A stretch of 64,000 nucleotides of DNA from Azorinus chamasolen (taxonomy: Eukaryota; Mollusca; Bivalvia; Cardiida; Solecurtidae), in contig OY755240.1 in assembly GCA_963576725.1 (NCBI GenBank), positions 56,792,633 to 56,856,632 on the forward strand. Reading direction: 5' to 3'. Each line of letters starts with the position of its first letter. Position 1 is the first letter of the stretch. The notes beneath the pieces were generated by a model, which saw nothing but the letters and a program-made list of their open reading frames with translations, ran no database searches and was not told where the DNA came from. Below are positions 14,801 to 61,047 of the stretch, piece by piece. A program made the translations under genes and the position numbers.

Positions 14801-17800
14801 TGTCTGATCAGGGTCTGCTCTGTTTGCTTATGGAATATAATATACATGTAGATCTGATTCAACAGTTTCTACCAATACCAACAAAACCGGTGTACATATG
14901 TCTTTTAAAATCAAAATAATAATAATTTCCCGAATTAATGTTCATGATGTTATCATTTTTTTCATGAATATTAAACAGGGAACAGGTTAATTTATGTGAT
15001 CTGGGATATAGTGTGTCAAAATAACCCTAAATATACAGACACTCAGTCTCCAATCTTCACTGGTTTGCATGGCTGAATAATTAAAGCTGGCATTGTTCTG
15101 ATCATTTTAACCCTTTCCTCCATCGATGCGCTTTTCTATGCCTCTGTAAAAGTCGCTTTTTGAAACTAGTGATAAATAGAGTATTTGCTCCTATAGGAGC
15201 AAATGCTCTATTTATCACAGTGGATTCAAAACTACAAAATTCTAAAATTTTCCTTTCCTCCAGTAAATGCCCCTTTTCAGTAGATTTATTCAAAGGTCTA
15301 AAAATAGCCTATGGAGGATGGGTTAATGAAACTAACAGAGTAACAAGTACTATAGACCCTCCTTCTTCAGGAGCACTTTGAGCTGTGTCTACACTACTTG
15401 CCTAATTTTGTCAACACAGTAAAGCCTGTCTTAATCCTTTCCCTGTTCAATATTCATGTAAGAGATAATGACATGAATATTTATTAACTGGATTTTTATA
15501 CCGTAAACTTTTCAAGGAAATCTTTTACTTTGACAAAAACTGTCGAATCAGATCTATATCATATCAAAAGCAAACAGAGTAGACCCTAACCAGACGGTTC
15601 CTATAGGAGCCATCTGATCTGGATCTACTCTGTTTGCAAATGCATCAAAAGGCATTTAATGTGAGAAAAAGGGTTGAGCGACCATTAACCCTTCTCTTGC
15701 TGAATTTTAAAATACATTTCTCCTTCTTTACCCATGTCCTGTTGTATAATTACACATATCCTCACTGTGTACAAGTATTTCGCCGTGCAATCACTGCTGT
15801 GGAGTGCACTGGTTGCACAATCAACTTGTAAATAGTGCAGACCCTGATGAGAAAGCTCCTGCAGGAGCTGTCTCATCTGGGTCTTCACTATTTACAGGTA
15901 GGTATATTGACGTGAATAGCAAGCGAAGGGTTAAAAATACATGTAAGTCTAATTCTGGATCTGTATGAAAGTAAGCAGATGGCAGCTTAATATAGGTCAA
16001 AAGAAATGCAAAAAGCTCCTATAGGAGGCTTAGGAGCTTTCTGTATTACCTTTGCTCTGCATTAAGCAACCACCTGCTTAGTCTTGTCAATACACACAAA
16101 TGGTAAGAAGATTCATACCAGACTGGGCTATGCACAGAACATCAGCAACTTCTTCCAGGTACACCTCACTCTCAAATAACTCCCACTGTTTCTGAGCAAA
16201 GTCTGTCTTGTTCTCTCTGATCTGAAATGATTAAAAAGTTTATCTTTACAAATAATTTTGCATTTTTGAATTCTTAACTCTTTCAGGTTAAATTTAACAC
16301 AAAAAATATATTCAAATACTGCTTGAAAGTTGATGACAGTAGTGGCAAAGGAAGTCAACAAAGTTTCAAGCTTTTAATTGGTCAGATTTGAGTTCTCAAG
16401 CTTTTGATTGGTCAGATTTGAGCCAAAGGCTCAAATCTGACCAATCAAAAACTTGAGAACAAACTCCGACTCAACTAAAAGTTTTATAAGCATGGACCAT
16501 GGTTTGTGTATTTTCATGCAATATATCAAAGCAGCAGTCTTATACATGTGCCTAGACTACTCCATGTACATGTACAGGGTGATTTAACCCTTTCCCTAAT
16601 GAACATTTAAGAAAATATTCATTAACTTAATTTTTATCATGTAAATTTTTTAAAAGACTTTTTGCTTTGTCAAAATCTGAAGGATCATATCTATATAATC
16701 CTATAAGTAAGCAGAGCAGACCCAGACAAGACAGCTCCTACACGTCTGATCTGGGTCTACTCTGTTTGCAAACATGTGAGAAAGTGTTTATATGAGGAAA
16801 AGCGTTAATATATACAGTGAATATGGTAGATAGTTTACCTGTGACAGAATGAAGAGGATTTCACTGAGGAGAAGCCGTATCCTTCTTGCTGGATCACTGT
16901 GTTCAAACTCCAGGGCCAGTCCATTCTGTAACTGGGAAATCAGGACACTATCTGTGTGTGAACTTCCTATCTTTTGTCTGCAACAGAAAAAAAGGTCTTG
17001 GAAATTCATAAAATAAATGTGAATACTTACTAAGTCATAATACTTACTAAGTCAATGTTATGTTTGTAGAACATCTGCAACTACTTGCTGTGGATATATT
17101 AATCCTTTACCTCAAGGATAATGATGTAAAATATCATGACATCATGAATATTAATTAGCTGAATTTTGTAATGGCATATGGACATAGGAATGTTTGGATC
17201 TGGCAGAAACTGTGGAATCAGATATATATAATTTCACATGCAAGTGGAACAAACCCTGATCAGCAGGTTCTAAAAGGGACTGTCTGATCTGGGTCTACTC
17301 TGCTTGCCCATTACTTCATAGGTTATTTTAGATCTAATATCTTTGAATTAAAAGTCTACTGTCTACTGAAAAGGAGAATTTACTAGAAACAGGAGGGCCA
17401 TCATGGCCCTGATATCCTTCAATAGGCAATCAGAGGAGAATATTCTCAAAGTTTTCACTATATGTTTCTATATATAGAAAACTGGCCACCCCTTGGGTGG
17501 GGTCAATTTAACCCCAAGGGGCATAATTTATATAACTTTTGAAGTAATTCTAAAAGAGGAAAAGTTACTGGCCTCTACCTGGATTCGAACCCTGGACCTC
17601 TGGGATGCTAGTCCGACACTCTAACCATGTCTCTAAAGGGTTAACCCAACAGCAAAGCTGTTGGAGATGCCTGACATAGTCTGATCACTGCACTCCCCTC
17701 CCCCTTAACCTTTAGGAGTCAGGCATATACCCATGCCCTGTAAACCTGCATGCCCCTAAGACTTTACATGCATCCCCGCATACAAACCAAAGTATCCTCG

Positions 17801-18927: not shown

Positions 18928-18949
18928 GGTTAGCACTGCTGGGGATCTC

Positions 18950-23799: not shown

Positions 23800-23970
23800 T
23801 TAACCCTTCCTCCATAAGCTATTTTTAGACCCAACCTCTTTGAAAGAATTTACCCAAAAGGAGCATTTACTAGAGAAAAGGAAAATTTTAGAATTTTGTA
23901 GTTTGAAACCATTGTGATAAATAGAGCATTCGCTCCTATAGGAGCAAATGCTCTATTTATCACAATGGAA
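23800..23970. mobile_element. Family C MITE, right end truncated
   Basis: TTAACCCTTCCTCCATAAGC then a perfect ~60-bp palindrome, ACCATTGTGATAAATAGAGC with its inverse, centred on GCTCCTATAGGAGC (23932-23945). Confidence 0.78.
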
Positions 23971-25236: not shown

Positions 25237-25535
25237 TTAACCCTTTCCCTCATATAAACATGTTTTCACACATTTGCAAACAGAGAAGACCCAGATCAGA
25301 CCGCTCCTATAGGAGCCGTCTGATCAGGGTCTGTTCTGTTTGCTTGTGGTATAATATATTTAACTTGACTACAGTATTTATTCAGAGCTACAGATAAAGG
25401 TGCATACTCATAATAAAATGATCATTTCTCCACCAAACCCTATGTTGTGACCACTAAAGGGTCGTCACAATATAGGATTTGGTGGAGAAATAAAGAAGTT
25501 ATTCTTGAAAATATTTTTAATTTATGCATCTATTC
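25237..25535. mobile_element. Family A MITE left half joined to family D MITE
   Basis: A-type left half and full core (25237-25360, centre GCTCCTATAGGAGC) run directly into a family D element (25380-25535) with CTATGTTGTGACCAC arms. Confidence 0.65.
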
Positions 25536-30152: not shown

Positions 30153-30351
30153 TAAATTTTTGTAGTTTAAAACCATTGTTATAAATGGAGCATTTGCTCC
30201 TATAAGAGCAAATGCCCTATTTATCACAATGGTTTCAACAGGATACTTTTGCAGAGGCGTCAAAAGGCGTTAATATGAGGGAATGGGTTAATGCAGGTTG
30301 AAAGGAGCTGTCTGCATGACTTTCAACCTGCATTAAGCTGCAACTTGCCAA

Positions 30352-46200: not shown

Positions 46201-49200
46201 CAGAGTCTTAAACCCTTTACAGTAAAACCTCTCTAAACCGGATGTTAAATTTAGTAAAAATTTCGGTCTTGGGGACAGGTGGAAGCTTAATGCAGGATGG
46301 AAGTCATGCAGAAAGCTCCTCTAGGAGCTTTCTGCATGACTTTCATCCTGCATTAAGCAGCCACCTGCCTAAAAGTATCTTAATTCTTCTCTGCTACAAT
46401 TCCGGTTTGGAGAGGGTTTACAGTATTTGATGAATATTCATGCAAGACTGGATCTATTAATACTATTAATTTATCTGCTTCTTGTGTTATGAATACAGAA
46501 TACGGAAAGACTATGGTGGAAGTAAAAGCTGGTTTTTTTTCTTTCTACTAACTGATTTTTTTGTGAAACACTATGCACCTAACAGGTGCTTTAACCTAAA
46601 CTTTTGAGCATCAATCTTAAAGTGTGAACTCACCTCAATATAGTGTCATTGAAAAGATGTAGCTTCATAAGATAAATGCACATGCCAAGCATGAAGTCTC
46701 TATCTGTTAAAGTTACGGCCAAGGTCAATAAAAAGACAGACTGGCACACAGCTCATTCATTAGCTGAATTTATATAATGACATATGACCTATGTCAGTCT
46801 ATGCAAATACTTTAGATTCAGTAACTCAGCATCTCATTAGGATCCAAACTGTTTGTTACTATGATCATGTTTATTGAAAGAAAAGAGGGTCTGCACTGTT
46901 TGACATTTAAAATATTAACATTTTACTCTATAAATACATAGAGGATCTTACATGAGTGTTCTTGATTATTGGATTTATTAAATGAGTCTTTTTAAAATAA
47001 TAAAAAACGAGCTTTATGAACATGAATGCAAGATTCTATTTATAACATAACAAACACAAATGTTTTTTTGCAGCCAATAGTTCAGCAGTAACATGGATTG
47101 TTATAAATTCTCCTTACATATAGAAATGATGAATGAAATGTGTTATTAGGTTCGCTAAGTAACTGGGACAAAGTAGGTCCAAAATTTCCAACTGTTTTTT
47201 TGACTTACTGTCACAACAACCAGGATCTAATTTAGACTTCTCTGATATTTAATTTAACCGTGAAAGTTTATGATAACAAAAACCTACAGAAACACGTCAA
47301 AATAATTTTTGAGTTACAGTTTCGACATACAAACACGTCACATTATGACGTCACTGTACACAACATTTGTCTGTGTAAAGTGCACCATTTGCTAATAGTT
47401 TAAATGAAGATGCCTACACGTCTGACACTCACTGTCAATGGGATTTAAAATGCGCCTTCGTTTTGGTATATTAAGCCTTTCATCAGTGTTGTATACACTT
47501 GGACATTTCCGCCGTGAAAAAGTTTATTGAAATGGACAAAAGATTCAGTACGAACTGCTGCATAAAATGTGTTGGAACAGGAGGAAGATTTTCGCCATCA
47601 GCCGATTTGGAGAATAACATATTTGAAATGTGTTTGTGCTGTGCTGGATTCAGATGACTATAGTTGTTGTTTGACGAGATATTTTTATGAGTAGAAATCT
47701 GCCTAAACAAAAGGATATGCGGTGAAGAAAATGTAAGGCTGTGGAGGCAATTTTATTTAGTAGAATGGATGGTTTGGGTCAGAGTAGCTGGTAGGTCTTT
47801 TTTGGCATACATTTTGTAGACATTTACTGACAGCGATTACAATTTGTATTATTTTATCGAAATTAAGGCGCAAGTGTAACATAACTGACAACCAAAAGGG
47901 CTTACTTCTGTATTGTTTAACACATTTGCCATCAGGCCAAAGACAAGATGCTCATTTTGTATGGTGTAACATATTTGCCATCAGGCCAAAGAGATAAGAC
48001 AATGTGCTCACTTTGTATGGTGTAACATATTTGCCATCAGGTGTCACATCACCAGTTTTATTGAGCAGGTTCTCCCTGGGTATTCTGTAGTTGTTGAAAG
48101 ACATAAATCTGGAAATACAAAAAAGTCAAAATGATATCATAGCGTGAAAATATTTAATAGCCCTTTCCTTCATATTAACACATTTGCAAACAGAGTAGAC
48201 CTATAGGAGCCGTCTGATCAGGGTCTGCTCTGTTTTCTTATAACACAATATAGATCTGATTCTACAGTTTCTAGAAGAAAAAAAAACCTTGAACATTTTA
48301 CACTATGAGCTAATTCAGTTAATTAATATTCATGACATCATTAATTCTTACATGAATATTGAACAGGTACTGGGACTTTTTTTTAACTATGGCAGAACCT
48401 GTAGAATCAGATTTATATTAATTTCGTATGCAAACAGAGCAGACCTTATTTCAAGACGGCTCAACCAGGAGCCATTTGACAGGGTCTTTTTGTTAGCAAG
48501 GTTATAAAAGGGCATCTTGATTAGGTAAAGGGCACACTGTACTGGCAGAATATATCAGCACCCTGGTATGGCATTACAAAGCAGGGAAGGTCCACTAGCA
48601 CAGTTTGAAACTGACTTTATGTCAAGTTCAAGAATAACCATGTATATATCTTTATGTTCTTGTTACACCCTTTCAGTGATTTTAGTGTTTGTTCTTATAC
48701 TGATCTAAACTTGCTTAAAACATTTATAAGGTATCAAGAGTGTTGATGCAACCTATGTGTCACTTTCCAGCAGAAAGTGTCTAAAAAGCATGACAGACAC
48801 TCAGACAGCTGATAGAGAAATGATCCTTAAGTGCCAAACCTGCTAAAGCAGGTGACAGAAGAAAAGTTATTGTTTAACCCATTCCTCTTAAGCTATTTTT
48901 AGACCCAACCTCTTTGAATAAATCTACCAAAAAGGAGCATTTACTAGAGAAAGGGATATTTTTTAGAACTGTGTAGTTATGAAACCATTGTGATAAATAG
49001 AGCATTTGCTCCATAGGAGAGACTTTTACAAAGGCGTAGAAAGGTGTATTTATGGAGGAAAGGGTTAACACTTTTCCTTTTCTATATTTATTCCAACTTT
49101 CAAGACCTACTGAATATTCATGGACAAAATAGTTATAATGAAATATGGAAAAGGGATGGACAAAATAGTTATAATGAAATATGGAAAACGGAACGTTGTA

Positions 49201-52200
49201 GCCATTTTACAAACTAAATAAATAGATGTATCAAATTCCATTAGCAAACAGAGCAGACCCTTATCAGAGGCTCCTAGAGGAGCCATCTGATCTGGGTCTA
49301 CTCTGCAGATGTGTGAAAAGGTGTGTATATGAAAGAAGGCATTATATGATTCAAGTAAATAAACTAAATCTGATACCCATTATCTAAACCATTTTGTCCT
49401 AGTTTTTCTCCCATGTCTCCCAGCAGAATTCCTGGCATGGTGCGCAAGTTGCTGTCACGGATCTGGACAACAAACGAGTGTAGTCCATGGCACCGACCGT
49501 CAGCAGTATACAGCTGGGCATACACTATGGCATGGGTGGCCGTCTTTCCCATGTTTCCTGACCAGATTTTACAGGCCTCAAAGTCTGGAGTATTGATCAC
49601 AAACTCCTGAAATAGGTTAATAGCCAATACTGTATTTCCTCCAAATATTCAACAGGCCAAGCTTAGGCCAAAATAGTACCAACACGGATCAAACTGCTAC
49701 TATTGGAACAGTTTGATAAGGGAGCAATATGATCTGGGTCTACAATATTTGTCAAAATGAAGCAAAATTTACTTATTCATATTATAACCCATTCCCTGTT
49801 CTATGTTTATTTCAGTTTTCAGTACCTACTGCATATTCATAGCCAAAATAGTTATACTGAAATATGGAAGGCGGAACATTGTAGATAGTGTAGAGAGTAA
49901 AGACACAGATCTTTCAAATTCTATTAGCAAACAGAATAGACCCTGATCAGACAGCTCCTATAGGAGCCGTCTGATCTGGGTCTACTCTGTTTGCAATTGC
50001 GTGAAAACATGTTTATATGAGGGAAAGGGTTAACCTTGTAAAGAGGGAAGACTTGGTGTGTGAATATTTAAGGTCATCAAGATAGATTTAATTATTAAAG
50101 TAGATGGGCCTATGAATTTTTTGTCTATTAGGATAATAGAAAATGAGACATACCAGTATTAACCTTTTATTCCATTAATATTCATGAAAGAAATAATGAC
50201 ATCATGGATATTAATTAGATTAATTGTTATGATAGCATATAGGGAAAGGATATTTTGACCATGGCAGAAACTGTAGAATCATATCTATATTATACCATTA
50301 GCAAACAGAGCAGACCCTGATTAGACAGCTCCTATAGGAGCAGTCTGATTTGGGTCTACTCTGTTTGCAAAGGCATAGAAAGGCATATTTATGGAATAAA
50401 TGGTTAAGCAGAAAAGAACTGTTTCAAACAGAAGATAAATCTGTACATTCATTGTTTAATTTGCCTCCTTCAGAAATAAATCTACTGAGTAGTGTAATTG
50501 ATCCAGAATCTACAAACATGGTCTCAAAATTAAACGAAAGATAGAAAGAAAGATTTTAAGTCTTTGGTATGACTTGCCTGGGCACTGGTTCCACAATATC
50601 ATGCCCCAAATGGGACTGAGCTAGACGTGCAGATTAAAGTAATTATAATTGCAAACTAGAGATGAATTTATGGTTGTTTGTGGGTTTACCTCTGTGTTTG
50701 AATCATAAGTTGCTGTTGTTCTCATTGCCCTTGTGTTGCTGCCATGGCTGAGCTCTGTCAGTGCAAAACACCCAAACACCTGCCAAAGCATTTGAAATAC
50801 AAGGTAAGCATTTAACCATTTGAATGCTGAAAATTTAAGTCAACAGCCAGGTACCTATCAGAGCAACAGATAACGGTGTGTACTCAAATACTAAAACCGT
50901 CATTTCTCCACCAAACCCTATACTGTGACCACTCTTTAGAATCGTCTTGAAAAGATGACTCTAAAGAGTGGTCACAACATAGGGTTTGGTGGAGAAGTTA
51001 TTTTTGAAAATGTTTTGATTTACACATCTTATCAGGGCCTCTGATCTATTTGAGACGCTCTCAGATATTAGGCTAAAACGGAAATTTTGACTGAATCAAG
51101 GGCCATAACTCAGAGGTGTCTAATGCGATTTGACTGATAATCGAAATTGGTCAAGATTTTGCACCTATTAATATTCTCTGTAAGTTTTGTGAAGATCAGA
51201 TGTAAACTATTTGAGTTAGAGAGCGGACAAGGCTAAAATGGCCAATTTTGACTGAATCAAGGGCCATAACTCAAAGGTGTCTTCTACGATTTAAGTGGTA
51301 ATTGAACTTGGTCAAGATTTTGCACCTATAAACATTCTTCGCAAGTCTGGTGATGATCAGATGAAGACTATTTAAGTAAGAGAGCGGACAAGGCTAAAAC
51401 GGCCAATTTTGACAGAATTCAGAGGTGTCTTATGCTATTTAGGTGGTAATCGAACTTGATCAAGATTTTACACCTATAAACATTCTCTGTAAGTTTGATG
51501 AAGATCAGATGAAAACTATTTGAGTCAGAAAGCAGACCAAAAAAAAGCGTGACAGACTGACTGGCGGACAGGGCAATTACTATAGGGCACCCACACCAAG
51601 GTGTGGGGCCCTAATTAGATCTAGGTCTGCACTATTTGCTTAACGTTTTCCTTCATATAAATGCATTTTCACACATTTGCAAACAGAGTAGATCCAGATC
51701 AGATGGCTACTATAGAGCCGTCTGATCAGGGTGACTGCTCTGTTAGCTAATGGAATTTGATAGTTCTGGGTTTTTTTACTTTCTGAAATGGCTACGATGT
51801 TCAACCTTCTGTATTTCATTATAACTATGATACCCATGAATATTCAGTAGATATTGAAATTTGGAATAAACATAGAACAGGGAAAGGGTTAACCCTTTCC
51901 CTCATATAAACACCTTTTCACACATTTGCAAACTGAGTAGAGTCTGCTATTTATTTATGGTATAGCATCAATCTAATTCTATACTTTCTACCTGAGCAAA
52001 AACATCTTGTGTACATTATGCTACCATAAAATCTCAGCCAATAAATATTCATAATGTCTTTTTTAATGTCATTATTTCTTACATGAATACTGAACAGGGA
52101 AAGTGTTAAGTTTGTCTGTCTGAATACATAGGATAATTAGTACACTAAAAGCTCATTTTCCTTAGTGCTTTGACAAGGGGATGTGTAAATGTGTTGATAC

Positions 52201-55200
52201 TCTACATCAGACAACATTTTAGTATGTATGATTTTCAAAATACGAGTCAAAGTGTTGCCATAGCCTTGGTATGACCTAACCCCTGAGCTAAAGAATCAAT
52301 TCACTGAAGTAGTTGTTAGATACTGCCTTTATTCTAGAAGCTATGTGCATTGAAAATAAGAGAAATGACCTGTAGCAGGCTGCAGTATGAAAAATTGATA
52401 TAGCTTATCTTCATTCGAATAGTCTACAGGAGAATCAATATGTATGCTGACAAATAAGCCAATAGATGTGATCATGATGCACATGATATGTTTACCCTTT
52501 CCCTGTTTAGCGTTTATTCTAGATGTAATCACCGTATTAATATTCATCAAAATAATCAATAAAATGGAACATGGAAAACAAGGGTTTTTTTTCATCATGG
52601 TGGAAACTGTAAAATCAGATCTATAAAATTCCTTAGCAAACAGAGCAGACCCAGATCAGATGGCTCATATGAACCATCTGATCTGGGTCTACTCTGTTTG
52701 CTTCTTTAGCAGATGTCTGATCTGGGTCTACTCTGTTTGCTTCTTAAGCAGATGTCTGATCTGGGTCTTCTATGCTTGCAAAAGTTGTGAAAAGGAGTTT
52801 CTATGAGGGAAAGGGTTTAAACCCTTTACTCCATAAATACTTAAGTAAGAAATTATGACATTATGAATATTAATTAGATTATAATAATAGAACATGGAAA
52901 CAGGAATTGTTGGACATGGCAGAAACTGTAGAATCATATCTACATGTACATGTATATCATTAGCAAACAGAGCAGACGCTGACTAGACGGCTCCTATAGG
53001 AGCCATCCGATCTGGGTCTAGTCTACTCTGTTTGCAAAGGCGTTGAAAGTCGTATTTACGGAGTAAAGGGTTTAAGTATAAAGTGGGTTGTCAGACATAT
53101 ATTTGCCAGTATAATATTGGTATACCATGGCTGATCAGCTAGACACATACCCAAATATTAAAATCATCATTTCTCCACCAAACCCTATACTGTGCCACTC
53201 TTTAGAAGTGTCTCTTCAAGTTATTCTTGAAAGTGTATAAATTTACGCATCTTAATATCTGGACCTCATGTTTCAATGCGTATTCAACTTAATGTAGATA
53301 CAAACCTCAAATTGCTTGTTCTTCTCCACAAAAGGCAGATGGCGCTGGGATCCTGTGGACATAACAGTGCCACCAAACATCTGAAATAGTCATCAAATAT
53401 GCTGTAACACTTCCTTTCTCTCAATTAACACTTTGCTACACTAATTTGCATGTAAGAAATTATGACATTATAAACATTAATTAGATTAATTCATATTATG
53501 GCATATGAAAACAAGTTTTGGCCATGTCAGAAATTGCAGAATCTGATCTTTATTATTACATAAGCAGACAGAGCAGACCCTGATCAGATGGCTCCTGTAA
53601 AAACCATCTGATCTGGGTCTACTCTGTTTGAAAGGGGCGTTAAAAGATGTATTAAAGGAGACCCTGATCAGATGGCTCATACAAGAGCCATATGATCTAG
53701 GTCTATTCTGCTTGCAACGATGTGAAAAGGCAGTTCTGTGAGGTAAAAGGTTAAAGCTTAATTAGTCATCATTGTTTCCTTAACCCTTTCCCTGTTCTAA
53801 CTTCTATGTTTATTTCAAATTTCCATACCTATTGAATATTCATGAAAAGGTATTTATAATGAAATATGGAAGGTGGAACATTGTAGCCATTTTAGAAAGT
53901 AAAGGAACAGATCTTTCAAATTCCATCAGCAAACAGAGCAGACCCTGATCAGACGGCTCCTCTAGGAGCCGTCTGATCTGGGTCTACTCTATTTGCAAAT
54001 GCGTGAAAACATGTCTATATGAGGGAAAGGGTTAATCCTGTTGAATATTCATGTAAGAAGTAATGCCATCATGAATATTTCTTTGCTGAATGTATGTACA
54101 CATGGATGTTGGTATTGGTAAAAACTGTAGAGGCAGATCTTTTCAGATTTCATAAGTAAACATAGCAGGCCTTGATCTGACAGCTACTACAGGAGCCATC
54201 TGATCCGGGACTAGTCTACAAAGGGTTTAAAAGGCATACATTTCTAAAAGGTAAAGGGTTAACCCTTTCCTCAACAAGAGGGTCAAAATGGCCCCTTAAT
54301 CGCTCACCTGATCACCATAGATTTTAAATCAGAGCTGGATAGTCCCAGAATGGGACCAATATTGACCTAAGGGAACAATGATGGTAGTGGATCATGAGCA
54401 GTGGTTCTAGAGAACACAATTTTCAAAGATTCAGAACATTGATTTTTATCAAGACCATTTCAGACAAATAAAGATTTGGCTAAAAATGTGACCTCTAAAG
54501 TGATTTTTATAAGACTCGACCTAGTGACCTACCAGTAAGTTTTTTATCCCACCCCAACCATGATCAAGCTCAACCTTGATATCACCAAGACAAACATTCT
54601 GAGCAAGCTTGAGGAAGATTAGGCTAAACTGTGGCCGCTGGAGTGTAAACAAGATTGTTATAAGATATGACCTACTTTTTGGCCCCACTTAACCTACTTT
54701 CAAACTCTTCCAAGATTTTATCAGGAAAATTATTCATGAAGATTGGGCTAAAATGTAACCTCTAGTGTGTTCACAAGGTTTTCCTACCATTTGACCAGGT
54801 GACCTAGCTATTGAACCCCGATGACCCACTTTCAAACTCAATCGAGATGTTATCAAGACAATCATTTTGACTAAGTTTCATGAAGATTGGACAATAAATG
54901 TGACCTCTAGAGTGTTCGCTAGCTTTTTCTACTATTTGACCTAGTTTTTGACCCCACATGACCCACTTTCAAACTCATCTATGATTCTATCAAGACAATC
55001 ATTCCAAGTTTCATGAAGATTGGACAAAAATGTGACCTCTAGAGTTTTCACAAGGTTTTTCTACTATTTGGCCTGGTGACCTAGTTTTTGACCCCATATG
55101 ACCCACTTTCAAACTTGTCCGAGATTTTATCAGAACAATCATTCTGATAAAGTTTCATGAAGATTGGGCTGAAAATGTGACCTCTAAATTGTTCACAAGG

Positions 55201-58200
55201 TTTTCCTACTAGATGACCTAGTGACCTAGTTTTTGACCCCACATGACCCACTTTCAAACTTGTCGGAGATTTTATCAAGACAATCATTCTGACCATGTTT
55301 CATGATGATTGGATTAAAATTGTGACCACTAGTGTTCACACGCCAATTGTTGACGACGGACGATGCACGCCGGACAATAAAGTCTCCCAAAAGCTCACCC
55401 CAAGCTTTGCTCATATGAGCTAATAAATATGTCTATGCCTTTGCAAACAGAGAAGATCTACATCAGAAGATTCATACAGGAGCCGTCTGATCAGGGTCTG
55501 CTCTGCTTGCTAATGGAATAATATAAAGATGTAGATATATGATTTTACAGTTCTGCCATAGTCAAAATCTCATGTGTTCATGCGCCAATATAAAAAATAA
55601 AACTAATCAATATTCATGATATCATTATAATTATCTTACGTAAATATTCATGGAGTAAAGGTTAATAATTATAAACAACACAGACATGATAGTTATCAAC
55701 AAAATCAGCAGCAAAGCAAACATCAAATAGATAACAAATTACAGTGAAATTGTTACTGACGTTGGTCACGTAAATTTGATACCATAGTCCAGAGTTTATA
55801 TAATTCAATCTTTAATCTGTTGAGCAAATTTTGTCATCTTCGTTTTCAAAATACAAGGTACATGTATATTCAATTTCTCAGCAATAATACAATCATAGAG
55901 TCAAAGATAAAGGAGCCGTCTGATCTGGGTCTACTCTGTTTGCAAATGCGTGAAAACATGTTTATATGAGGGAAAGGGATACTCAAATATTAAAAGAAAT
56001 ATCATTTCTCCACTAAATCCTATATTGTGACCATTCTTTAGAATCGTCTTGAAAAGACGATTCTAAACAGTGGTCATAACACAGGGTTTGGTGGAGAAAT
56101 AAAGAAGTTATTCTGGAAAATGTTTTAATTCATGCATCTTATCAGGGCCTCTGATAGTTAATCCTTTCTTCCATTAATACGCCTTTCTATGCATTTGCAA
56201 ACAGAGTAGACCCAGATCAGATGGCTCCTATAGGAGTCGTCTGATCAGGGTCTGCTCTGTTTGCTTATGAAATAACTATAGATATGATTCTACAGTTTCT
56301 ACTACAGCCAATAACTCCTATGTCTTTATCAAACTTAATCTAATTGAATACTCATCACATCAATATTTCTATTTTAAATAATCATGGAGTAAAGGGTTAA
56401 ACCATAAATTTGGATCTGGATGAGATGATGAATTACTCTGCATGTCATCAGGTCCATGCTTATAAAACTTTTTAGTTGAGTCTGAGTTCGTTTTCAAGCT
56501 TTTGATTGGTTAGATTTGAGTTCTCAAGCTTTTGATTGGTCAGATTTGAGCCAGAGGCTCAAATCTGACCAATCAAAAACTTGAGAACAAACTCAGACTC
56601 AACTAAAAGTTTTATAAGCATGGACCCTGGATCGAAAGTATTTGCATTGGTCATCACAGATTAGATCACAGATTAGATCTAAAGTTTAATAATTGACTGA
56701 TGATAAAATATCTCCTGAAGAAACCCTTAAACTGATGAATTAACCATTTACTCCATGAATATTCATGACAGAAATAATGACATCAAGAATATTAATTAGC
56801 AGAATTTTAATAATGACATAATTATGAGTTCAGGATTTTTTTGCCAATACAAAAAGGTAGGATCACATTCATATATTCTTAAGCAAACAGAGCAGACCCT
56901 GATCAGACGGCTCCTTCTCTGTTTGCAAAGGCGTAGAAAAGAGTATTTATGGGCTTAAGGTTTAAACAGGTTAATAACAGCTATGGAAAATCAATTTCGA
57001 TGATTGTGATAGTGGTTAGATTTTGCTGTTTATCAAAAGTAAACTGTTCAAGGTTCCAACACCCTCGGAAATGTCCCTGTGACAATATCTCTGATTTTTA
57101 ATCTCTATTTTTAGAAGAGAAAGTGATAATGTATAAGAGTGATAATGTACATTATAAAAGGATAAACTTTGCTAAAATGAATTCTAAATGGAAAAAAAAC
57201 CTGCATAAATACTCTTATCCGAGTCTCAACTGTTTACCCTCATTGACACAATGATACAATAAAATATCAAGCCATTTTTGTCTGCCAGCTTTCAATGCTT
57301 AACCCTTTACCTGTTCCATATTAATGAAAAAAAATAATGAAATCATGAATATTTATTAGCTGAAGTTTTATAATGTAGAGTTTTCAAGGAAAGTTTTTGC
57401 TTTGAGAAAAACTGTAGAATCAGATCTATATTATTCCATAAGCAAAAAGAGCAGACCCTGGTCAGATTGCTCCTATAGGAGCCATCTGATCTGGGTCTAC
57501 TCTGTTTGCAAATGCATGGAAAGGTGTCAGGGTCTACTCTGTTTGCTTATGGAATTATATAGATCTGATTATAAAGTTTGTGAAATGGTAAAATTACCCA
57601 TTTTTCAGTGACCAATATACACAAATTCAGGTAATGAATATTCATTCAGTCACAAATTCTTGTACAAATATTCACGAGGGAAAGAGTTAAATATCAGAAG
57701 TTTTGTATCAGACCCTTCAGTTCAGTAAAGTGATTAGAACTTTCATTACCTCTGTATTCAGTTGGTACTTCGCACACAATGCCCAGTCAAACATCCCAAG
57801 GCAATCTGTCATGATCTGGTGTTTTAGAGGATTTTGGAATATGTCATCATCTGTCAGGAAGTCATATTCAAACAAGCGCTTAGCTCTGCGGAAGTTTGTT
57901 TCTCTTTGTTTCTCTACAGATGGAGTTTCAGTTGGTTTCCAGAAGAGAGGATCTTTTTCAAAAGATGTCCATATTTTGTTCTACAGAATAAAAAGTAAAC
58001 AAAACAGATCATTGTGTGAAAATGTTATAGCACCAAATACAGTAAAACCTCTCTATAACAGCCACTAAATTACATCCAATATTTTGTGTTACTGGCAGGT
58101 GGCTGCTTAAAGCAAGGTGAAAGTAAAACAGAACGCTCCTGTTGGAGCGTTCTGTTTTACTTTCACCTAGCTTTAAGCAGCAACCTGCCCTAAATACCAA

Positions 58201-61047
58201 CTAATTAACACAATTTAGTGGCCGTTATAGAGAGGTTTTACAGAACAAATTTTCTCACAAACATTTGAATCATATACATGTAATACAACTGATATATTTC
58301 ACTGAATCTTTCCAGATAAGCCATATTGAAAAGGTGGCAGATACATGTATGGAGGTTGTTCTGTTCTTATTTTTTGTGCCCATTGGCCCTGAATAAAAAC
58401 AAAGGAAAATGTGTATACCAATACCAGATGGCTACTGTAAGGAACTTCTAATCAGGATCTGCACCTACAAAGTTTTACTGAATTTAAGCCAAAGGTTTCA
58501 GACAAGAAGATCATTAAAGTTTTACTTTTATTGCCATGGCACTCTGAATTCTACAATAAATGCAATTCTTTGAACAACTTTGGACTGTTATGTACACCTA
58601 GGTGTTCGATGTGGTCAACTGCCTGTAGCATCTGGCCGAGTCAGTAGGGGAACTCACTAGTTTCCTTCATGTTACATTCCAGAATCCCAAAGGAAGAGTA
58701 CCTTAAGGCTTTCCCTCATATAAACGTGTTTTCACGCATTTGCAAACAGAGTATACCCAGATCAGACGGCTCCTAGAGGAGCCGTCTGATCAGGGTCTGC
58801 TCTGTTTGCTAATAAAATTTGATGGATCTGTTTCTTCACTTCTAAAATGTCTACAATGTTCCACCCTCCATATTTCTTTATAACTATTTTGTTAATGAAT
58901 ATTCAATAGGTATTGGAATTTGGCTTAAACATAGAACAGGGAAAGGGTTAAGGCTTAAGCTGTACCATATCCAGAATGGTTTGATTGACTTCCCAAAGGA
59001 AGGTACCTTAAAGAACAAAACCCGCTCCTTTATTATGGAGCACAACACTAACCCTGCGTGTATGCAAATTCCTTTTTCCAAGGATCATTCTTGACTGGAA
59101 TCAGTTACCTTTCTCAATCACAGACTCTCTTGAAGGTTTCAATGCCCCAGTAAGAGCCTCCATTATGAGGTAATTACCAATTGCCTCTGTTGATAGTTTT
59201 ACCTGGTTGTAAGGGACCCTACTCCAACCACATTTTAGCTTAATTAATGGAAAACAAATACATATTGTAACTGGGTTGAATTTCAACCCAGTTAAGTCGG
59301 GTAGAGGTAACTGGTGAAAAGTCACAGATTGTGTGGCTTGGTAGCTCAGTGATTAGAGTGCTGGCCTGGTAAGTCGGGAGTCCTTGGTTTGAGTCCCAGT
59401 TGGGCCACAACCTTTTCACTAGTTGTCCTGTTACAGTTTGATGCCTAACGAAAATTCAGACTGAGTACAAATAAAAACTACATGCCTGATTTTTTGCAAG
59501 GGGGAGTAGTATAACAGGGTTGATATGAGTCTTGTACAAGTAACTAACTAGTGGAAAATCAATAAGTCCCGGATCATGTGACTTAGTAGTTCAGTACTGT
59601 AGTTTGTGTGTAGGCTGGAAAGCCACAGGCCCTGAATTTGAGTCCTCGTCAGGCCAAGATCGTTTCACCAGTTAATTTGTTAAAAATAATATTATACATT
59701 TTATATGTAACATGGTGAAAAAGTTGTGACTCGACTGGGACTCGAACCCAGGCCTTGGGCTTACCATGCCAACAACCTACCGCCTGAGCTATCAAGCCAC
59801 ACAGTCTAAAACCTACCAACTATTTCACCACAATCTCTACCCAGCTACACACACCCCCTCTGCACAATAATTCGTCCAGAATTCTTACTCAAAGAACACT
59901 CCATGAGTTTCTTATTACGATGCTGTCCGGTCTTCTTGCGCACCTAAGCATTTATCGGTTTATTTATTACAGATCATAGAGATGAAATTTTTTCATCATT
60001 ATTTATCTGTATACAAATACCTACCAGGCATATAATGACATAAACATTTTTTGGAAATAACAGTTTGATCCACTAAGTTCAGCAGTGTAAACATGCTTAC
60101 CCCCCTGTTTTAGCCCAGCATTCAACTGTCCGGTGATCTTGCGCACATGATTTTTAGAAGGGAAAATGAGATTGGATAATATTTTAGCACATGGAATATT
60201 GTTTTAATACGGGTGTTATTAGATCATTCCTTCAGACTGGACGCAAAATTCTGGAATAGTTGTTACAAACCAGCACTCATTAGAAAAAAGTCAGTGGGCG
60301 TGTTTATGCATAAGTAATTAGGATGACAAAATATATAAATATGCGTGTTTGACAGGTACTATTTTTAAATTACATTGCTGGAGTAGTTCAGCTGAGTTTA
60401 TAGTAAGTCCAAATTATTCAGTTTGTTGAAATTTTCACCCATGACCGTAAACTAACGACTAAACGACAATAAATATACGAGTGCGCAAGATGACCGCACG
60501 TGCAAGATTACTGAACACGACAGTATTACAAATCTTTTTCAAATAAATCACCCTTTGGGTTATTTACGTTGGGCGCCAAATGTAACATGAGGAAAAAGTT
60601 GTGACTCAAATGGGACTCAAACCCTGGGCCTTTGGCTTACCATGCCAACACTCTACCAACGGAGCTGCCAATCCACACAGCCTAAGCCCATCAACTGTTT
60701 CACCACAATCTCTACCCGGCTACGTTTCCTTAATAGACCTCCCACTACCCTCCCAGTCGCAGTGTGACTGACCACTGCATGTGTCCTTAAAAGAATATGA
60801 ACATTACCTTAAAACGTAGAATATCCTCGCCATTCAGATACACTTTCATTTCCTTCCAGTCAAAGGAGGCTTTCTTTCTATAGACATCTAATGGACCTGG
60901 AGAAAAGTCCTTCATGATTTCCAAGCTTCCAACATCCTGATCCTGCATCTCTTCTGCTTCTGTCCCCGGGACCACGACAGCGGGGTCAAGGCCAGTCTTC
61001 GTGTTTGAAACTAAGTTAGGACGCACTGATTTTATTTTAGAGCTCAT
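34112..61047 (-). CDS. ACOX3: Peroxisomal acyl-CoA oxidase 3, complete in 15 exons
   Basis: ACOX3 catalyses the first, FAD-dependent step of peroxisomal beta-oxidation (acyl-CoA to trans-2-enoyl-CoA, making H2O2), in mammals mainly on branched chains. Fifteen GT-AG exons join into 733 codons and TGA without any frame break (human 700 aa). In order: an N-terminal extension, [18 protein letters not shown] (residues ~52-69), the oxidase signature [13 protein letters not shown] (~186-198), [72 protein letters not shown], and YEGDN with E481, which aligns with the catalytic glutamate of the family. The protein ends K-S-K-L, a canonical PTS1 peroxisomal signal. The ATG at 61047 is preceded by in-frame non-ATG codons. 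Best match is ACOX3 rather than ACOX1 throughout. A minus-strand AATAAA lies at 33998-33993. Introns are 0.4-4.4 kb and full of repeats. Confidence 0.97.
34545..34850 (+). mobile_element. Tandem-repeat element fragment with hairpin tail
   Basis: Ends with ACAGACCGACGGACAGAC and the hairpin AATGCCCCTG...CAGGGGCATAA, as at 3300-3395. Confidence 0.6.
34872..35092. mobile_element. Family A MITE, centre deleted
   Basis: TTAACCCTTTCCCTGTTG to GAAGGAAAGGGTTAA; only the left core arm remains. Confidence 0.7.
35100..35423. mobile_element. Tandem-element fragment and truncated family A MITE
   Basis: 35100-35215 (GTGTCACCTCCCAGGAG) resembles 48740-48860. 35243-35423 is a family A copy with most of its core lost. 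Confidence 0.5.
35668..36150. mobile_element. Two family A MITEs in series
   Basis: 35668-35932 has a rearranged core (a second AAAGTAGACCC arm after CCCTGATG); 35932-36150 runs to within ~30 bp of ACOX3 exon 14. Confidence 0.68.
36179..36333 (-). CDS. ACOX3: ACOX3 exon 14, residues 643-694
   Basis: [52 protein letters not shown]; near-identical to human QLKDDAVALVDVIAPPDF. Acceptor TTTATTCTAG, donor GTATAT. A family A element ends roughly 30 bp past the donor. Confidence 0.96.
36482..36710. mobile_element. Family F MITE (TTAA-type)
   Basis: TTAACCCATTTGATCCAACG to GAGAGCAAATGGGTTAA, TTAA at both ends; perfect core GGCAAACAGTGTTGACTCTG with its inverse around GACGCCGCATAATATGGCGTC. Confidence 0.8.
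36793..36940 (-). CDS. ACOX3: ACOX3 exon 13, residues 594-643
   Basis: [20 protein letters not shown] then [20 protein letters not shown], the less conserved C-terminal helical region. Acceptor TTCTCACAG, donor GTAAGT. Confidence 0.92.
37002..37224. mobile_element. Family A MITE with exact shared centre
   Basis: TTAACCTTTTCCCTCATA to AGAGAAAGGGTTAA; centre GCTCCTATAGGAGC at 37068-37081. Confidence 0.78.
37524..37752. mobile_element. Family A MITE, right core arm shortened
   Basis: TTAACCCTTTACTTCATG to GGAGTAAAGGGTTAA. Confidence 0.72.
37899..38053 (-). CDS. ACOX3: ACOX3 exon 12, residues 542-593
   Basis: [40 protein letters not shown], matching human VALAAYKWLVCYLL and FEARNKCQVSHGRPLALAF. 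Acceptor ATTTTCTAG, donor GTGAGC. Confidence 0.94.
38071..38357. mobile_element. Family A MITE with 50-bp internal duplication
   Basis: TTTATCCCTTGATTCCATG to GGAGTAAAGGGTAA; ATGGATACAGAATTG and TTTTTGGCCATTGCTGTAGA are repeated in the left flank (38152-38230). A tandem-element tail fragment follows at 38380-38605. Confidence 0.66.
39033..39275. mobile_element. Family A MITE, diverged
   Basis: TTTAACCATATCCCTCCA, core 39070-39140. The preceding 38610-39030 holds nothing recognisable. Confidence 0.62.
39335..39680. mobile_element. Family A MITE inserted in a B-core MITE
   Basis: AAGTGGTAGCTTAATACAG (B-core arm) is cut at 39380 by an A copy (39380-39617, GTAACCCTTTCC to GGGAAAGGGTTAA) and continues as GCTATCACCTGTC. 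A 17-bp tandem repeat (GTGGCCTCTTAGTTAT) lies at 39309-39342. Confidence 0.62.
39718..39922. mobile_element. Family B MITE with TA target sites
   Basis: TA-CAGTAAAACCTCTCTGAA to AGAGGGGTTTTCCTG-TA; core AAAGCTCTTCTAGGAGCTCTT. Ends 20 bp from ACOX3 exon 11. Confidence 0.8.
39943..40053 (-). CDS. ACOX3: ACOX3 exon 11, residues 505-542
   Basis: [19 protein letters not shown] then [18 protein letters not shown], equivalent to human [20 protein letters not shown]. Acceptor TCTGTTGCAG, donor GTAGAA. A family B element ends about 20 bp past the donor. Confidence 0.93.
40218..40352. mobile_element. Short TTAA-type foldback
   Basis: TTAACCCTTTCAGTGTG to GTCTGGTTGTGGTTAA with a weak core; a diverged F/A relative. 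Confidence 0.5.
40425..40615. mobile_element. B-core MITE, alternative shell
   Basis: GTCTTAAGCGGCATC outer part, AATTATGGGTCTGTAAGGC then core AAAGCTCCTACAGGAGCTTT; same shell as 8158 and 42241. Confidence 0.68.
40713..40962. mobile_element. Family A MITE beside ACOX3 exon 10
   Basis: CTAACCCTTTACACTATT to AGAAAGGGTTAA; ends 39 bp before the exon. Confidence 0.72.
41001..41123 (-). CDS. ACOX3: ACOX3 exon 10, residues 464-505, catalytic Glu
   Basis: [20 protein letters not shown] then [16 protein letters not shown]481 in YEGDN is the expected catalytic base. Acceptor ATACCACAG, donor GTAACA. A family A element ends 39 bp on one side and a family B element starts 25 bp on the other. Confidence 0.95.
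41149..41349. mobile_element. Family B MITE beside ACOX3 exon 10
   Basis: CAGTAAAACCCCTCTAAACC to AAAGGGGTTTACTATA; core AAAGCTCCAAGAGGAGCTCT. Starts 25 bp from the exon. Confidence 0.75.
41370..41625. mobile_element. Family A remnant
   Basis: Right core arm (GATCTTGGTCTATTCTGTTT) and ACAGTTCCTACGG centre only. 41626-42120 shows nothing further. Confidence 0.4.
42241..42457. mobile_element. B-core MITE, near-perfect palindrome
   Basis: Ends ACAGTAGAAACTGTCTTATG and ACAGGTTCTATGGTACTGT; inner arms GCAGGTGGTTGCTTAATGCA and its inverse, centre GCTCCTATAGGAGC at 42341-42354. Another A right-end remnant precedes it at 42130-42225. Confidence 0.78.
42507..42627 (-). CDS. ACOX3: ACOX3 exon 9, residues 424-464
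   Basis: [20 protein letters not shown] then [17 protein letters not shown], nearly identical to human at the [10 protein letters not shown] motif. Acceptor TTTGTTTCAG, donor GTTAGA. Confidence 0.96.
43337..43588. mobile_element. Family A MITE, intact ends
   Basis: TTAACCCTTTCCCTCATA to AACAGGGAAAGGGTTAA; the clearest representative of the CCCTCATA/CCTGTTC end pair. Confidence 0.82.
44131..44297. repeat. Long inverted repeat, ~65-bp arms
   Basis: TGTGCTGTTC...ATATCACATCCTATGGAGAG...GCACGT...GTCAACC and its inverse around TAATGTCATAATGACAT. No second copy seen in the window. The preceding 43600-44130 is non-repetitive, with several TGACGTC-like motifs and no exon. Confidence 0.75.
44328..44531. 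mobile_element. Family B MITE
   Basis: TA-CAGTACAACCTCTGTAAA to TTTAGAGGGGTTTTACTA-TA; core AAAGCTCCTCTAGGAGCTTT. A truncated A copy follows at 44535-44665. Confidence 0.78.
44726..44848 (-). CDS. ACOX3: ACOX3 exon 8, residues 383-423
   Basis: [19 protein letters not shown] then [19 protein letters not shown], matching human QWRLLPYLAAVYALDHF. Acceptor CTATTGTAG, donor GTAGAA. Confidence 0.95.
44953..45192. mobile_element. Family A MITE
   Basis: TTAATCTTTTCCCTTATG to ATGAGGAAAAGGGTAA; centre shortened. An A right-end remnant lies at 45405-45483, followed by a short TTAA foldback (45489-45600). Confidence 0.65.
45690..45932. mobile_element. Family A MITE, core shortened
   Basis: TTAATCCTTTACTCCATG to GAGGAAAGGGTTAA; only ATCAGACTGATC remains at the centre. 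Ends 50 bp from ACOX3 exon 7. Confidence 0.7.
45982..46164 (-). CDS. ACOX3: ACOX3 exon 7, residues 322-382
   Basis: Contains [39 protein letters not shown] and EYQLQ. The ARRQFGP motif contacts FAD in this family. Acceptor TTTTAACAG, donor GTATAA. Confidence 0.96.
46219..46423. mobile_element. Family B MITE
   Basis: CAGTAAAACCTCTCTAAACC to GGAGAGGGTTTACAG; core AAAGCTCCTCTAGGAGCTTT. From 46430 to 47890 I see only a tandem-element fragment (46560-46745) and no exon or MITE. Confidence 0.78.
47900..48005 (-). repeat. ACOX3: Two tandem copies of the exon 6 3' end and donor
   Basis: Two partial copies of the 3' end of ACOX3 exon 6 (DGKYVTPYK region plus splice donor) follow the real donor with a period of about 50-56 bp. 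The copy nearer the exon has ATGAGC in place of the donor (47955-47950); the farther copy has GTAAGC (47905-47900). They share the linker GGCCTGATGGCAAAT on the minus strand. Confidence 0.8.
48012..48108 (-). CDS. ACOX3: ACOX3 exon 6, residues 289-321
   Basis: [20 protein letters not shown] then [12 protein letters not shown], donor GTGAGC. The last ~30 coding bases and the donor are repeated twice more in tandem just inside the intron (down to 47900), one copy keeping a usable GTAAGC. Confidence 0.94.
48158..48530. mobile_element. Two family A MITEs, fused and shortened
   Basis: Left copy from AGCCCTTTCCTTCATATT with a shortened core, fused near 48366 to a second core (48429-48495) lacking its left end. 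Confidence 0.6.
48735..48865 (+). repeat. Tandem-element fragment
   Basis: GTGTCACTTTCCAGCAGAAA and ACAGACACTCAGACAG match the fragment at 35100. Confidence 0.45.
48873..49345. mobile_element. Family C MITE followed by family A MITE sharing one TTAA
   Basis: C copy 48873-49069 (core half deleted), then A copy 49066-49345, in which GACAAAATAGTTATAATGAA is duplicated (49121-49197). Confidence 0.68.
49377..49606 (-). CDS. ACOX3: ACOX3 exon 5, residues 213-289
   Basis: Contains [44 protein letters not shown] and [14 protein letters not shown], the beta-domain that binds FAD. Acceptor CTATTTCAG, donor GTATCA, two bases carried over. Confidence 0.96.
49785..50032. mobile_element. Family A MITE
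   Basis: ATAACCCATTCCCTGTTC to GAGGGAAAGGGTTAA; centre GCTCCTATAGGAGC. Confidence 0.76.
50158..50407. mobile_element. Family A MITE
   Basis: TTAACCTTTTATTCCATT to GGAATAAATGGTTAA; centre GCTCCTATAGGAGC. Confidence 0.76.
50690..50779 (-). CDS. ACOX3: ACOX3 exon 4, residues 183-212
   Basis: [20 protein letters not shown]: the acyl-CoA oxidase signature lining the flavin site. Acceptor CTTTGGCAG, donor GTAAAC; 30 full codons. Confidence 0.96.
50850..51035. mobile_element. Family D MITE
   Basis: CCTATACTGTGACCACTCTT...AAGAGTGGTCACAACATAGG around AATCGTCTTGAAAAGATGAC. Confidence 0.75.
51036..51612 (+). mobile_element. Tandem-repeat element, three ~170-bp units
   Basis: Units share TTGACTGAATCAAGGGCCAT, AACTTGGTCAAGATTTTGCA and GTGAAGATCAGATG; ends with the hairpin GGGCACCCACACC/GGTGTGGGGCCC. 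Same family as 1-300. Confidence 0.7.
51638..52109. mobile_element. Two family A MITEs sharing a single TTAA
   Basis: 51638-51891 and 51888-52109 meet at GGGTTAACCC, the TTAA belonging to both. The second has lost most of its core. Confidence 0.75.
52491..53074. mobile_element. Two adjacent family A MITEs; first has tripled core arm
   Basis: 52491-52818 and 52816-53074 meet at GGGTTTAAACCC. In the first, the right arm GATCTGGGTCTACTCTG plus TTTGCTTCTT is present three times (52679-52770). The second has an intact centre GCTCCTATAGGAGC. Confidence 0.75.
53140..53250. mobile_element. Family D remnant
   Basis: CACCAAACCCTATACTGTG left arm without its partner. Confidence 0.5.
53306..53380 (-). 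CDS. ACOX3: ACOX3 exon 3, residues 158-182
   Basis: [20 protein letters not shown], equivalent to the human VFGSAVYSSGSERHL segment. Acceptor ACTATTTCAG, donor GTTTGT; 25 full codons. Confidence 0.93.
53440..53755. mobile_element. Family A MITE with duplicated core
   Basis: Cores at 53560-53630 and 53660-53715; right end GAGGTAAAAGGTTAA; left end degenerate. Confidence 0.6.
53778..55666. mobile_element. Chain of three family A MITEs, third split by tandem element
   Basis: 53778-54034, 54031-54262 and 54258-55666 share TTAA junctions. The third is interrupted after TTAACCCTTTCCTC by a tandem-repeat element (54273-55424) and resumes at TATGTCTATGCCTTTGCAAA. Confidence 0.72.
54273..55424 (+). 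mobile_element. Tandem-repeat element, ~165-bp units
   Basis: Starts AACAAGAGGGTCAAAATGGC, has about six units with GACCCACTTTCAAACT and TTTCATGAAGATTGG, and ends CAAAAGCTCACCCCAAGC...GAGCTAA. Similar ends to 29001 but different units. Confidence 0.7.
55910..56140. mobile_element. Family A right half joined to family D MITE
   Basis: A fragment (55910-55979, GGAGCCGTCTGATC to GAGGGAAAGG) followed at once by a D element (55980-56140). 55667-55905 shows nothing recognisable. Confidence 0.62.
56156..56402. mobile_element. Family A MITE
   Basis: TTAATCCTTTCTTCCATT to GGAGTAAAGGGTTAA; centre GCTCCTATAGGAG. Confidence 0.75.
56448..56628. mobile_element. Family E MITE
   Basis: CATGCTTATAAAACTTTTTA and its inverse outside, TGATTGGTCAGATTTGAGCC/GGCTCAAATCTGACC inside; left arm contains one extra internal copy of the TTTTGATTGG motif. 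Confidence 0.78.
56738..56967. mobile_element. Family A MITE, core shortened
   Basis: TTAACCATTTACTCCATG to GGGCTTAAGGTTTAA. From 56968 to 57295 nothing recognisable. Confidence 0.66.
57298..57692. mobile_element. Recombinant family A MITE
   Basis: TTAACCCTTTACCTGTTC with full core (centre GCTCCTATAGGAGC, 57470-57483) and then a second right flank beginning GGGTCTACTCTGTTTGC, ending GAGGGAAAGAGTTAA. Confidence 0.65.
57750..57980 (-). CDS. ACOX3: ACOX3 exon 2, residues 81-157
   Basis: Contains [40 protein letters not shown] and [20 protein letters not shown], matching the human N-terminal helical domain. Acceptor ATTCTGTAG, donor GTAATG. The opposite strand carries a 121-codon open frame here that is only its shadow. 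Confidence 0.95.
58038..58241. mobile_element. Family B MITE
   Basis: TA-CAGTAAAACCTCTCTATA to TATAGAGAGGTTTTAC; core GAACGCTCCTGTTGGAGCGTTC, near-perfect arms. Confidence 0.8.
58701..58953. mobile_element. Family A MITE
   Basis: TTAAGGCTTTCCCTCATA to ACAGGGAAAGGGTTAA; core 58742-58809 with GGCTCCTAGAGGAGCC. Preceding 58250-58700 shows nothing recognisable. Confidence 0.78.
59266..59684 (+). mobile_element. TRIM-like LTR element with tRNA-like LTRs, decayed
   Basis: LTR1 59266-59435 (TGTAACTGGG to CCTGTTACA); decayed primer site TGATGCCTAAC at 59439-59449, explained by CpG loss from TGGCGCCCAAC; purine tract CAAGGGGGAGTAG; LTR2 from 59510. LTR1 holds a tRNA-like cloverleaf at 59333-59408 with a 7-bp acceptor stem (GTGGCTT/GGGCCAC) and A box TAGCTCAGTGAT. 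Confidence 0.68.
59706..60724 (-). mobile_element. TRIM-like LTR element with tRNA-like LTRs, minus strand
   Basis: LTRs 59706-59849 and 60581-60724, both 144 bp. On the minus strand the primer site TGGCGCCCAAC (60578-60568) lies two bases after the 5' LTR, and a purine tract (GCAGAGGGGGTGTG) precedes the 3' LTR. The 3' LTR has perfect Pol III boxes: A TAGCTCAGGCGG (59791-59780) and B GGTTCGAGTCC (59748-59738). The 718-bp internal part has no open frame of note; CCGGTNNTCTTGCGCAC occurs twice in it. No target-site duplication seen. Confidence 0.72.
60808..61047 (-). CDS. ACOX3: ACOX3 exon 1, residues 1-80
   Basis: Starts [19 protein letters not shown]; a poorly conserved N-terminal stretch of about 50 residues precedes the conserved [14 protein letters not shown]. 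It is longer than the human N-terminus. Donor GTAATG after a full AAG codon. Confidence 0.9.

Follow-up and report, generated by a model that had tools for sequence, protein, structure and literature searches.

How can hairpins of transposable elements that differ in their ends and arms be built around one and the same sequence? A sequence-only reading of the window (i.e., the whole 64-kb stretch of DNA analysed here) raised this question by describing several foldback families centred on a common 14-bp palindrome, GCTCCTATAGGAGC. The centres that it gave, starting at 37068 in family A, at 42341 in B, and at 15187 and 23932 in C, proved exact, and we confirmed both the close variant GCTCCTGCAGGAGC in family G and the use of other centres in families D, E and F. 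The window holds more copies of the 14-mer than had been named: we found 14 exact ones, of which eight, four and two were assigned by their arms to A, B and C, respectively (Table 1). The 14-mer is located at the centre of the palindrome in all 14, and remains so in the A copy at 52990, which carries an insertion in one arm.

Table 1. Hairpins of the families A, B, C, D and G in the window, with the position or nature of the tip.
Hairpin	Tip and arms	Positions	Strand
B (B2)	14-mer 5565-5578	5524..5619	
B (B1)	14-mer 8226-8239	8185..8281	
B (B1)	14-mer 33002-33015	32957..33060	
B (B1)	14-mer 42341-42354, arm pairs 48/50	42298..42397	
B (B3)	tip GCTCCTCTAGGAGC	44381..44473	
B (B3)	tip GCTCCTCTAGGAGC	46276..46368	
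A	14-mer 6941-6954	6914..6981	-
A	14-mer 8411-8424	8384..8451	+
A	14-mer 25303-25316	25276..25343	+
A	14-mer 37068-37081	37041..37108	+
A	14-mer 49954-49967	49927..49994	-
A	14-mer 50328-50341	50301..50368	-
A	14-mer 52990-53003, insertion in one arm	52963..53034	-
A	14-mer 57469-57482	57442..57509	-
A	central CT (+ strand reading)	33857..33924	-
A	central CT (+ strand reading)	53929..53996	-
A	central AG	58742..58809	+
C	14-mer 15187-15200	15168..15223	
C	14-mer 23932-23945	23909..23968	
G	tip GCTCCTGCAGGAGC at 15855-15868, arms homologous to A	15827..15896	-
G	decayed tip	62663..62732	-
D	A-like arms, different tip	36522..36588	+
D (D3)	tip GCCGAGTtACTCGGC	61874..61938	+
D (D4)	tip GCCAAGTcACTTGGC	5332..5397	+

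None of 100 dinucleotide-preserving shuffles of the window contained a copy of GCTCCTATAGGAGC. The parent genome of the window (1,723,440,353 bases in 137 contigs) carries 178,273 copies, about one per 10 kb over 1.72 Gb, and the reversed 14-mer, which served as a control, had no copy genome-wide. Occurrences of the 14-mer in viral contigs (50 stretches) were taken as background. A string search of an open-licence library of papers found neither GCTCCTATAGGAGC nor any of six arm or end strings.

Family counts were drawn from a sample of 288,112 bases, consisting of the window, 20 fixed 10-kb stretches on 15 large contigs and eight 3-kb loci. The fixed stretches include 9,104 bases read as N, and their 190,896 readable bases carry 19 copies of GCTCCTATAGGAGC; the eight loci (L051-L058) were picked for carrying the 14-mer, and a few copies are counted twice owing to an overlap of L053 with L054. 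An open frame in L058 (1993-3012, minus strand) resembles a mariner transposase by eye. Across the 288 kb, 92 sites of the form GCTCC-N4-GGAGC were obtained with their flanks. Both arms belong to A/G, B or C in 88 of them (59, 19 and 10, respectively), three have one assigned side, and one has none; the 14-mer outside hairpins is accordingly found rarely, if ever, in the sample (one unassigned site among the 92). No site among the 92 unites two of the three families (A/G, B and C). At the threshold used, the window has 55 palindromes, and a profile of A gave 82 matches in it, counting D, G and partial ones. Clustering took 158 of 162 palindromes and divided them into A/D/G (78), B (41), C (19) and others (20). 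The intact GCTCC..GGAGC tip was seen in 47, 18, 9 and 0 of these, respectively, counts that are low because tips with an odd spacer were classed as 'other'.

The elements around the hairpins are of two kinds. Those of A and C (about 250 and 230 bp, respectively) run from TTAACCC to GGGTTAA and carry an off-centre hairpin, 39 bp from one end in A (arms of 34 bp, with two fixed mismatches) and 54 bp from one end in C. Those of B1, B2 and B3 (about 210 bp) run from TACAGT to ACTGTA and comprise outer inverted repeats and unpaired non-palindromic spacers on either side of a central hairpin, the arms of which measure about 46 bp. In G and D, A-type arms stand behind other TTAA ends. The hairpins carrying the tip span 60-100 bp. 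A fold-back element with a palindrome reaching its termini was considered and rejected, since the hairpin is off-centre in A and C and the spacers of B are unpaired. In A and C, the consensus shows the TTAA target site duplication at each end, with outer flanks near background; in D and G it was seen on inspection at the near ends only, many of which begin by eye with TTAACCC or TTAACTC. By their TTAA target site and CCC/CCT ends, A, C, D and G would class as piggyBac-type MITEs. Kolobok, another TTAA group, was rejected, as A and C begin with CCC and not with the 5'-RR..YY-3' termini that define it in the part of PMC9587614 used here. The consensus sequences of B1-B3 start with TACAGTA, and thus have the TA target site and CAGT start of pogo/Tigger-type MITEs.

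The window is eukaryotic, as it contains pieces resembling exons for acyl-CoA oxidase (a short frame at 42502-42717, minus strand, identified by eye and adjoining a B element) and for integrator complex subunit 2 (an exon-like frame at 18640-18990, minus strand, with relatives carrying PF14750 and a best match 83% identical). A frame at 62975-63406 (plus strand) resembles by eye the end of a non-LTR reverse transcriptase. One stretch occurs twice, at 765-1539 and 4202-4976, 3,437 bases apart and with 774 of 775 bases identical, either as a recent duplication or as a repeat pair, and nested long inverted repeats at 29695-30725 (arms up to 219 nt, 89% complementary) are distinct from the small hairpins. 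Among known RNA families (Rfam, gathering threshold), the window matches only two tRNAs (59335-59407, plus strand; 59727-59798, minus strand), and a homologue search with the reading frame crossing A hairpins found none.

We compared ends, arms and tips separately between the families. The ends of A and C are alike in 33 of 40 bases, with a likeness that extends beyond the first 10 bases (p 0.0005); those of A, G, D and D3 show no likeness beyond that point. The ends of B1-B3 are alike among themselves, and 15 comparisons with the ends of A, C, G, D and D3 gave p 0.005 for B1 and D and p 0.14 or more for the rest. The left spacers of the B subfamilies are unlike each other (p 0.23-0.78). As for the arms, those of A, G and D are homologous (20-21 of 27 bases; 20/27 for A and G). 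The arms of A and B agree in 11-13 of 27 bases (anchored p 0.04-0.10, with 0.04 for A and B2), those of C in 9/29 with B1 (p 0.38) and in 13/29 with B2 (p 0.02), those of G and C with a local p of 0.02, and those of A and C only at background (7/27 against a null mean of 7.2, p 0.63). The arms of A, B and C thus show no clear homology. The tip consensus is the same in A, B1, B2 and C; B3 (CT) and G (GC) deviate at the central pair only, and D has another tip. A and B also have in common CAGA, two bases from the tip. Most arm changes between subfamilies are compensated, as in 8/10 changed pairs between B1 and B2, 4/7 between B1 and B3, 6/8 between B2 and B3, and 6/7 between A and G. The three parts are therefore reassorted: A and C share one end and the tip and not the arms, A and D share the arms and not the tip, and B shares the tip with both A and C. 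The tip thus tracks neither ends nor arms, and ends, arms and tip vary independently. The sequence-only reading had called the families unrelated, which stands for A or C against B (both ends and arms differ) and for the arms of A against C, but fails for the 40-bp end that A and C have in common and for the arms common to A and G.

Plain common descent would trace the hairpins of A, B and C to one old hairpin, the arms of which diverged past recognition while the tip did not, and which captured new ends. Ends do change, because the common arms of A, D and G stand behind ends unlike after the first 10 bases, and both the CAGA beside the tip and the weak similarities between arms would agree with such an origin. 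Nevertheless, this reading requires a conserved tip, yet the tip is not conserved within families (see below) and is different in D, and the arms of A and C do not rise above background; we regard it as unlikely. We find it improbable that the tip arose by physical convergence, in which a G+C-rich 5-bp stem with a 4-nt loop would simply make a good hairpin nucleus. The predicted single-strand folds are indeed strong (z -11 to -19 in six hairpins), and the variation of the central pair would be in keeping with a merely physical role. However, the exact GCTCC exceeds what stability needs, other sequences serve in D, E and F, and the agreement of three of 13 arm lineages in randomly drawn 6-nt half-tips had a probability of about 1.3e-5 in a simulation.

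Variation within families was assessed in alignments that took in 161 of 204 A, 63 of 91 B and 32 of 42 C matches. The change rate of the GCTCC/GGAGC stem was close to that of the arms, being higher in three of five families (A, 0.133 against 0.114; B2, 0.068 against 0.065; C, 0.068 against 0.059) and lower in the other two (B1, 0.104 against 0.118; B3, 0.089 against 0.092). Gaps were commoner in the tip stem than in the arms in all five (A, 6.5% and 1.5%; B1, 11.5% and 3.8%; B2, 18.3% and 10.5%; B3, 11.1% and 4.3%; C, 12.2% and 10.7%). The variability of the central pair was high in A (0.32) and B3 (0.375), and lower in B1 (0.16), B2 (0.14) and C (0.10). Selection on resident tips is unsupported by these stem rates and gaps; base loss at the tip together with ordinary tip rates is consistent with hairpins that lose the tip once they have been inserted. 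Compensated variants common to at least two copies were found at 4 of 24 tip pair positions and 13 of 165 arm positions, and those common to at least three copies at 1/24 and 8/165, in a count that left out five A rows and one C row with a D-like tip. The idea of a tip purged of shared variants is thus unsupported as well, and the shared compensated variants speak against strict selection on the tip. The centre proposed to be better conserved than the arms is so between A, B and C, but neither within the families nor in D, where A-like arms carry a different tip.

Two further patterns concern the arms. Divergence in the hairpin arms is lower than in the rest of the element in B1 (0.118 against 0.273), B2 (0.065 against 0.104), B3 (0.092 against 0.192) and C (0.059 against 0.125), which would agree either with a constraint acting on the hairpins of source copies or with spacers that align less well. 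The corresponding figure for A takes in flanking DNA and was left out of this comparison. Compensated changes in resident copies numbered 95 in A (24.8 expected), mostly common to several copies, 10 in B1 (6.04 expected), 7 in B2 (1.18 expected), all within one copy, and 11 in B3 (3.61 expected), six of them shared. Ongoing arm-to-arm conversion was rejected for resident C copies, in which two compensated changes against 1.46 expected make no excess. In the consensus of the A hairpin, the most variable positions of both arms are the CpG of GACGGC, often TG or CA; this variability is likely a sign of cytosine methylation of A elements, to judge from the substitutions.

The genome has 110 matches to the piggyBac-type domain DDE_Tnp_1_7 and at least 151 to a pogo-type domain, many of either with open frames. 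We scanned the two flanks, and these alone, of 10 piggyBac and six pogo loci, and left out of the count the six piggyBac and two pogo loci without clear paired ends. This left four delimited piggyBac-like elements (C5, C11, C2 and C7) and four pogo-like ones (two on C3, C14 and C1). In the fetched flanks, an A-, B- or C-like hairpin lies between the ends of none of the eight (0/4 piggyBac-like, 0/4 pogo-like), and the A, B, C or D matches near them are outside the ends taken. The end pair is ambiguous at the C2 piggyBac locus (56.6 Mb), where a perfect 20-base TTAA pair is present outside the inner (CCC) pair and a B hairpin match falls between the two; the inner pair was taken as the end. The C2 element itself contains a short palindrome with 15-base arms. 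None of the four delimited piggyBac-like elements matches the ends of A or C, and none of the four pogo-like elements, from six loci examined out of 151 matches, matches the end of B beyond CAGT; no parent of A, B or C was thus found among the examined autonomous loci. All four pogo-like elements have TACAGT ends, in a search that itself required TACA. A D-type end beside L061 8330 agrees in 17 of 18 bases with TTAACCCTTTCGGCGCCA of the C5 element. The latter (about 94,221,201-94,224,291) has identical 14-base ends, and a short imperfect palindrome, GGCGAGATTWCTCG, occurs twice in its left end, which recalls the way palindromes are repeated in piggyBat.

These elements bear on the proposal that the 14-mer is a site for a shared enzyme. 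By analogy with piggyBac and piggyBat, where, in the portion of PMC11707139 used here, the cysteine-rich domain of either transposase binds to a short palindrome in the subterminal region, the palindrome described here might be a transposase binding site, and in A, D, D3 and G the distance from one TTAA to the start of the hairpin is indeed 38-41 bp. However, the hairpin was seen in none of the four piggyBac-like and four pogo-like delimited elements, a single tip would need to serve two transposase types (the ends of A and C differ from those of B), and the arms measure 34-46 bp, as against 14-19 bp for the piggyBat and piggyBac palindromes. We consider a transposase site very improbable, and in this form the shared-enzyme proposal is unsupported.

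The main rival to an exchange of tips is a shared amplification signal, which predicts much of the same anatomy. A host factor would bind GCTCCTNNAGGAGC, or a hairpin capped by it, and help MITEs of any transposase type to multiply, with source copies keeping the tip while their arms drift in compensated pairs. Such a signal is possible. It would account for a tip common to A, B and C although their arms and ends differ, for the varying central pair, for the paired arm changes between subfamilies and for the lower divergence of the hairpin arms in B1-B3 and C, and a function at the MITE level would predict hairpins unseen in 8/8 delimited autonomous elements. On the other hand, the tip stem is no better conserved than the arms within families, compensated tip variants are not clearly purged, and D manages without this tip (D3 alone has 51 matches, weak and partial ones counted). 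In a bolder version, GCTCCTNNAGGAGC would be a sequence-specific hairpin cap acting as an amplification device across transposon superfamilies, so that MITEs of the piggyBac and pogo types in one genome rely on a common host factor or fold-back priming event, which turned ordinary deletion derivatives into very-high-copy hairpin MITEs; we doubt this version.

Our tentative preference, held at less than even confidence, is that the GCTCCTATAGGAGC tip was passed between A, B and C as a ready-made hairpin tip, from which copying of the arm proper to each element was primed. While an element undergoes faulty repair or replication, the new strand would switch to one of the hugely abundant resident hairpins as its template and copy GCTCCTATAGGAGC; as GGAGC pairs with GCTCC, it could then fold back and go on to copy the element's own flank. 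Such priming would place the tip at the exact centre between matching arms and leave the arms free to differ between families, and the paired arm changes would also follow if, in the source lineage, either arm served as template for re-copying its partner. The exact centre (14/14), the unrelated arms, hairpins seen in MITEs alone (0/8 autonomous elements) and the lack of special conservation in resident tips make reuse of the tip the simplest account. It also agrees with (i) a tip consensus common to A, B1, B2 and C with arms not clearly alike, (ii) the likeness of the A and C ends, and the arms common to A, G and D with a different tip in D, and (iii) compensated arm differences, unlike left spacers in B, no compensated excess in resident C copies and no sign of selection on resident tips. 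Against the passing of tips stand the missing half-converted intermediate (0/92 tip sites unite two families), the parents of A, B and C, which were not found and leave a single-sided origin of the arms a supposition, the divergence of B1-B3 and C, which is lower in the hairpin arms than elsewhere in the element, and the weak arm similarities (A and B2, B2 and C, G and C), which leave room for an old common ancestry. Of the meanings first offered for the 14-mer, core exchange thus gains from the reassortment of ends, arms and tip and lacks an intermediate, and a preferred hairpin tip in replication is compatible with it.

How MITEs originate from autonomous transposons, and how a few families reach huge copy numbers, is an old open question. 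A tip common to two types of ends and unseen in the examined autonomous elements would distinguish what the transposase recognises from a component that matters at the MITE level, and makes two readings directly testable, namely fold-back priming at the birth of a MITE and a common amplification signal. It also calls for caution, as short common cores can give unrelated MITE families a related look.

Fold-back or palindromic MITEs, such as Angel of zebrafish, form near-perfect hairpins with a suggested role in amplification. In Angel-type MITEs the palindrome spans the element, whereas the hairpin described here forms an internal module flanked by unpaired sequence, and several families have its tip in common. 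Quasipalindrome correction by template switching uses one arm of a hairpin as the template for re-copying the other. That process is known for small changes, and is proposed here for the birth and upkeep of entire MITE hairpins.

The palindromes of piggyBac and piggyBat resemble those of the present families in lying near one end of TTAA elements; as far as the part of PMC11707139 used here goes, they are short duplex sites for the element's own transposase, in contrast to the long hairpins here, unseen in the examined autonomous elements. For bivalves, the main text of a transposon survey (PMC10294476) has the string 'mite' and neither 'palindrom' nor 'hairpin', and neither 'mite' nor 'palindrom' occurs in the part consulted of the Mercenaria genome paper (PMC8905726). 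The closest published precedent that we found is the CMITEs of the coral Acropora, which, in the portion of PMC2872659 used here, have TTAA target sites, CCC piggyBac-type ends, a core of unknown origin and a related autonomous element with almost no match to the core. A and C are like them in their TTAA sites, CCC ends and hairpin unseen in autonomous elements. An inner region more conserved between families than the ends, as in CMITEs, was found here for the tip (A, B and C) and not for the arms. In the same portion of PMC2872659, the whole 75-bp core of CMITEs is conserved, the 60 bases of it that are printed being without GCTCC by eye, and all families are of the TTAA type, whereas here the hairpin tip alone is in common and crosses to TA-CAGT elements too. 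Sharing of the tip alone, and its crossing between TTAA and TA-CAGT elements, is what is new relative to the coral CMITEs.
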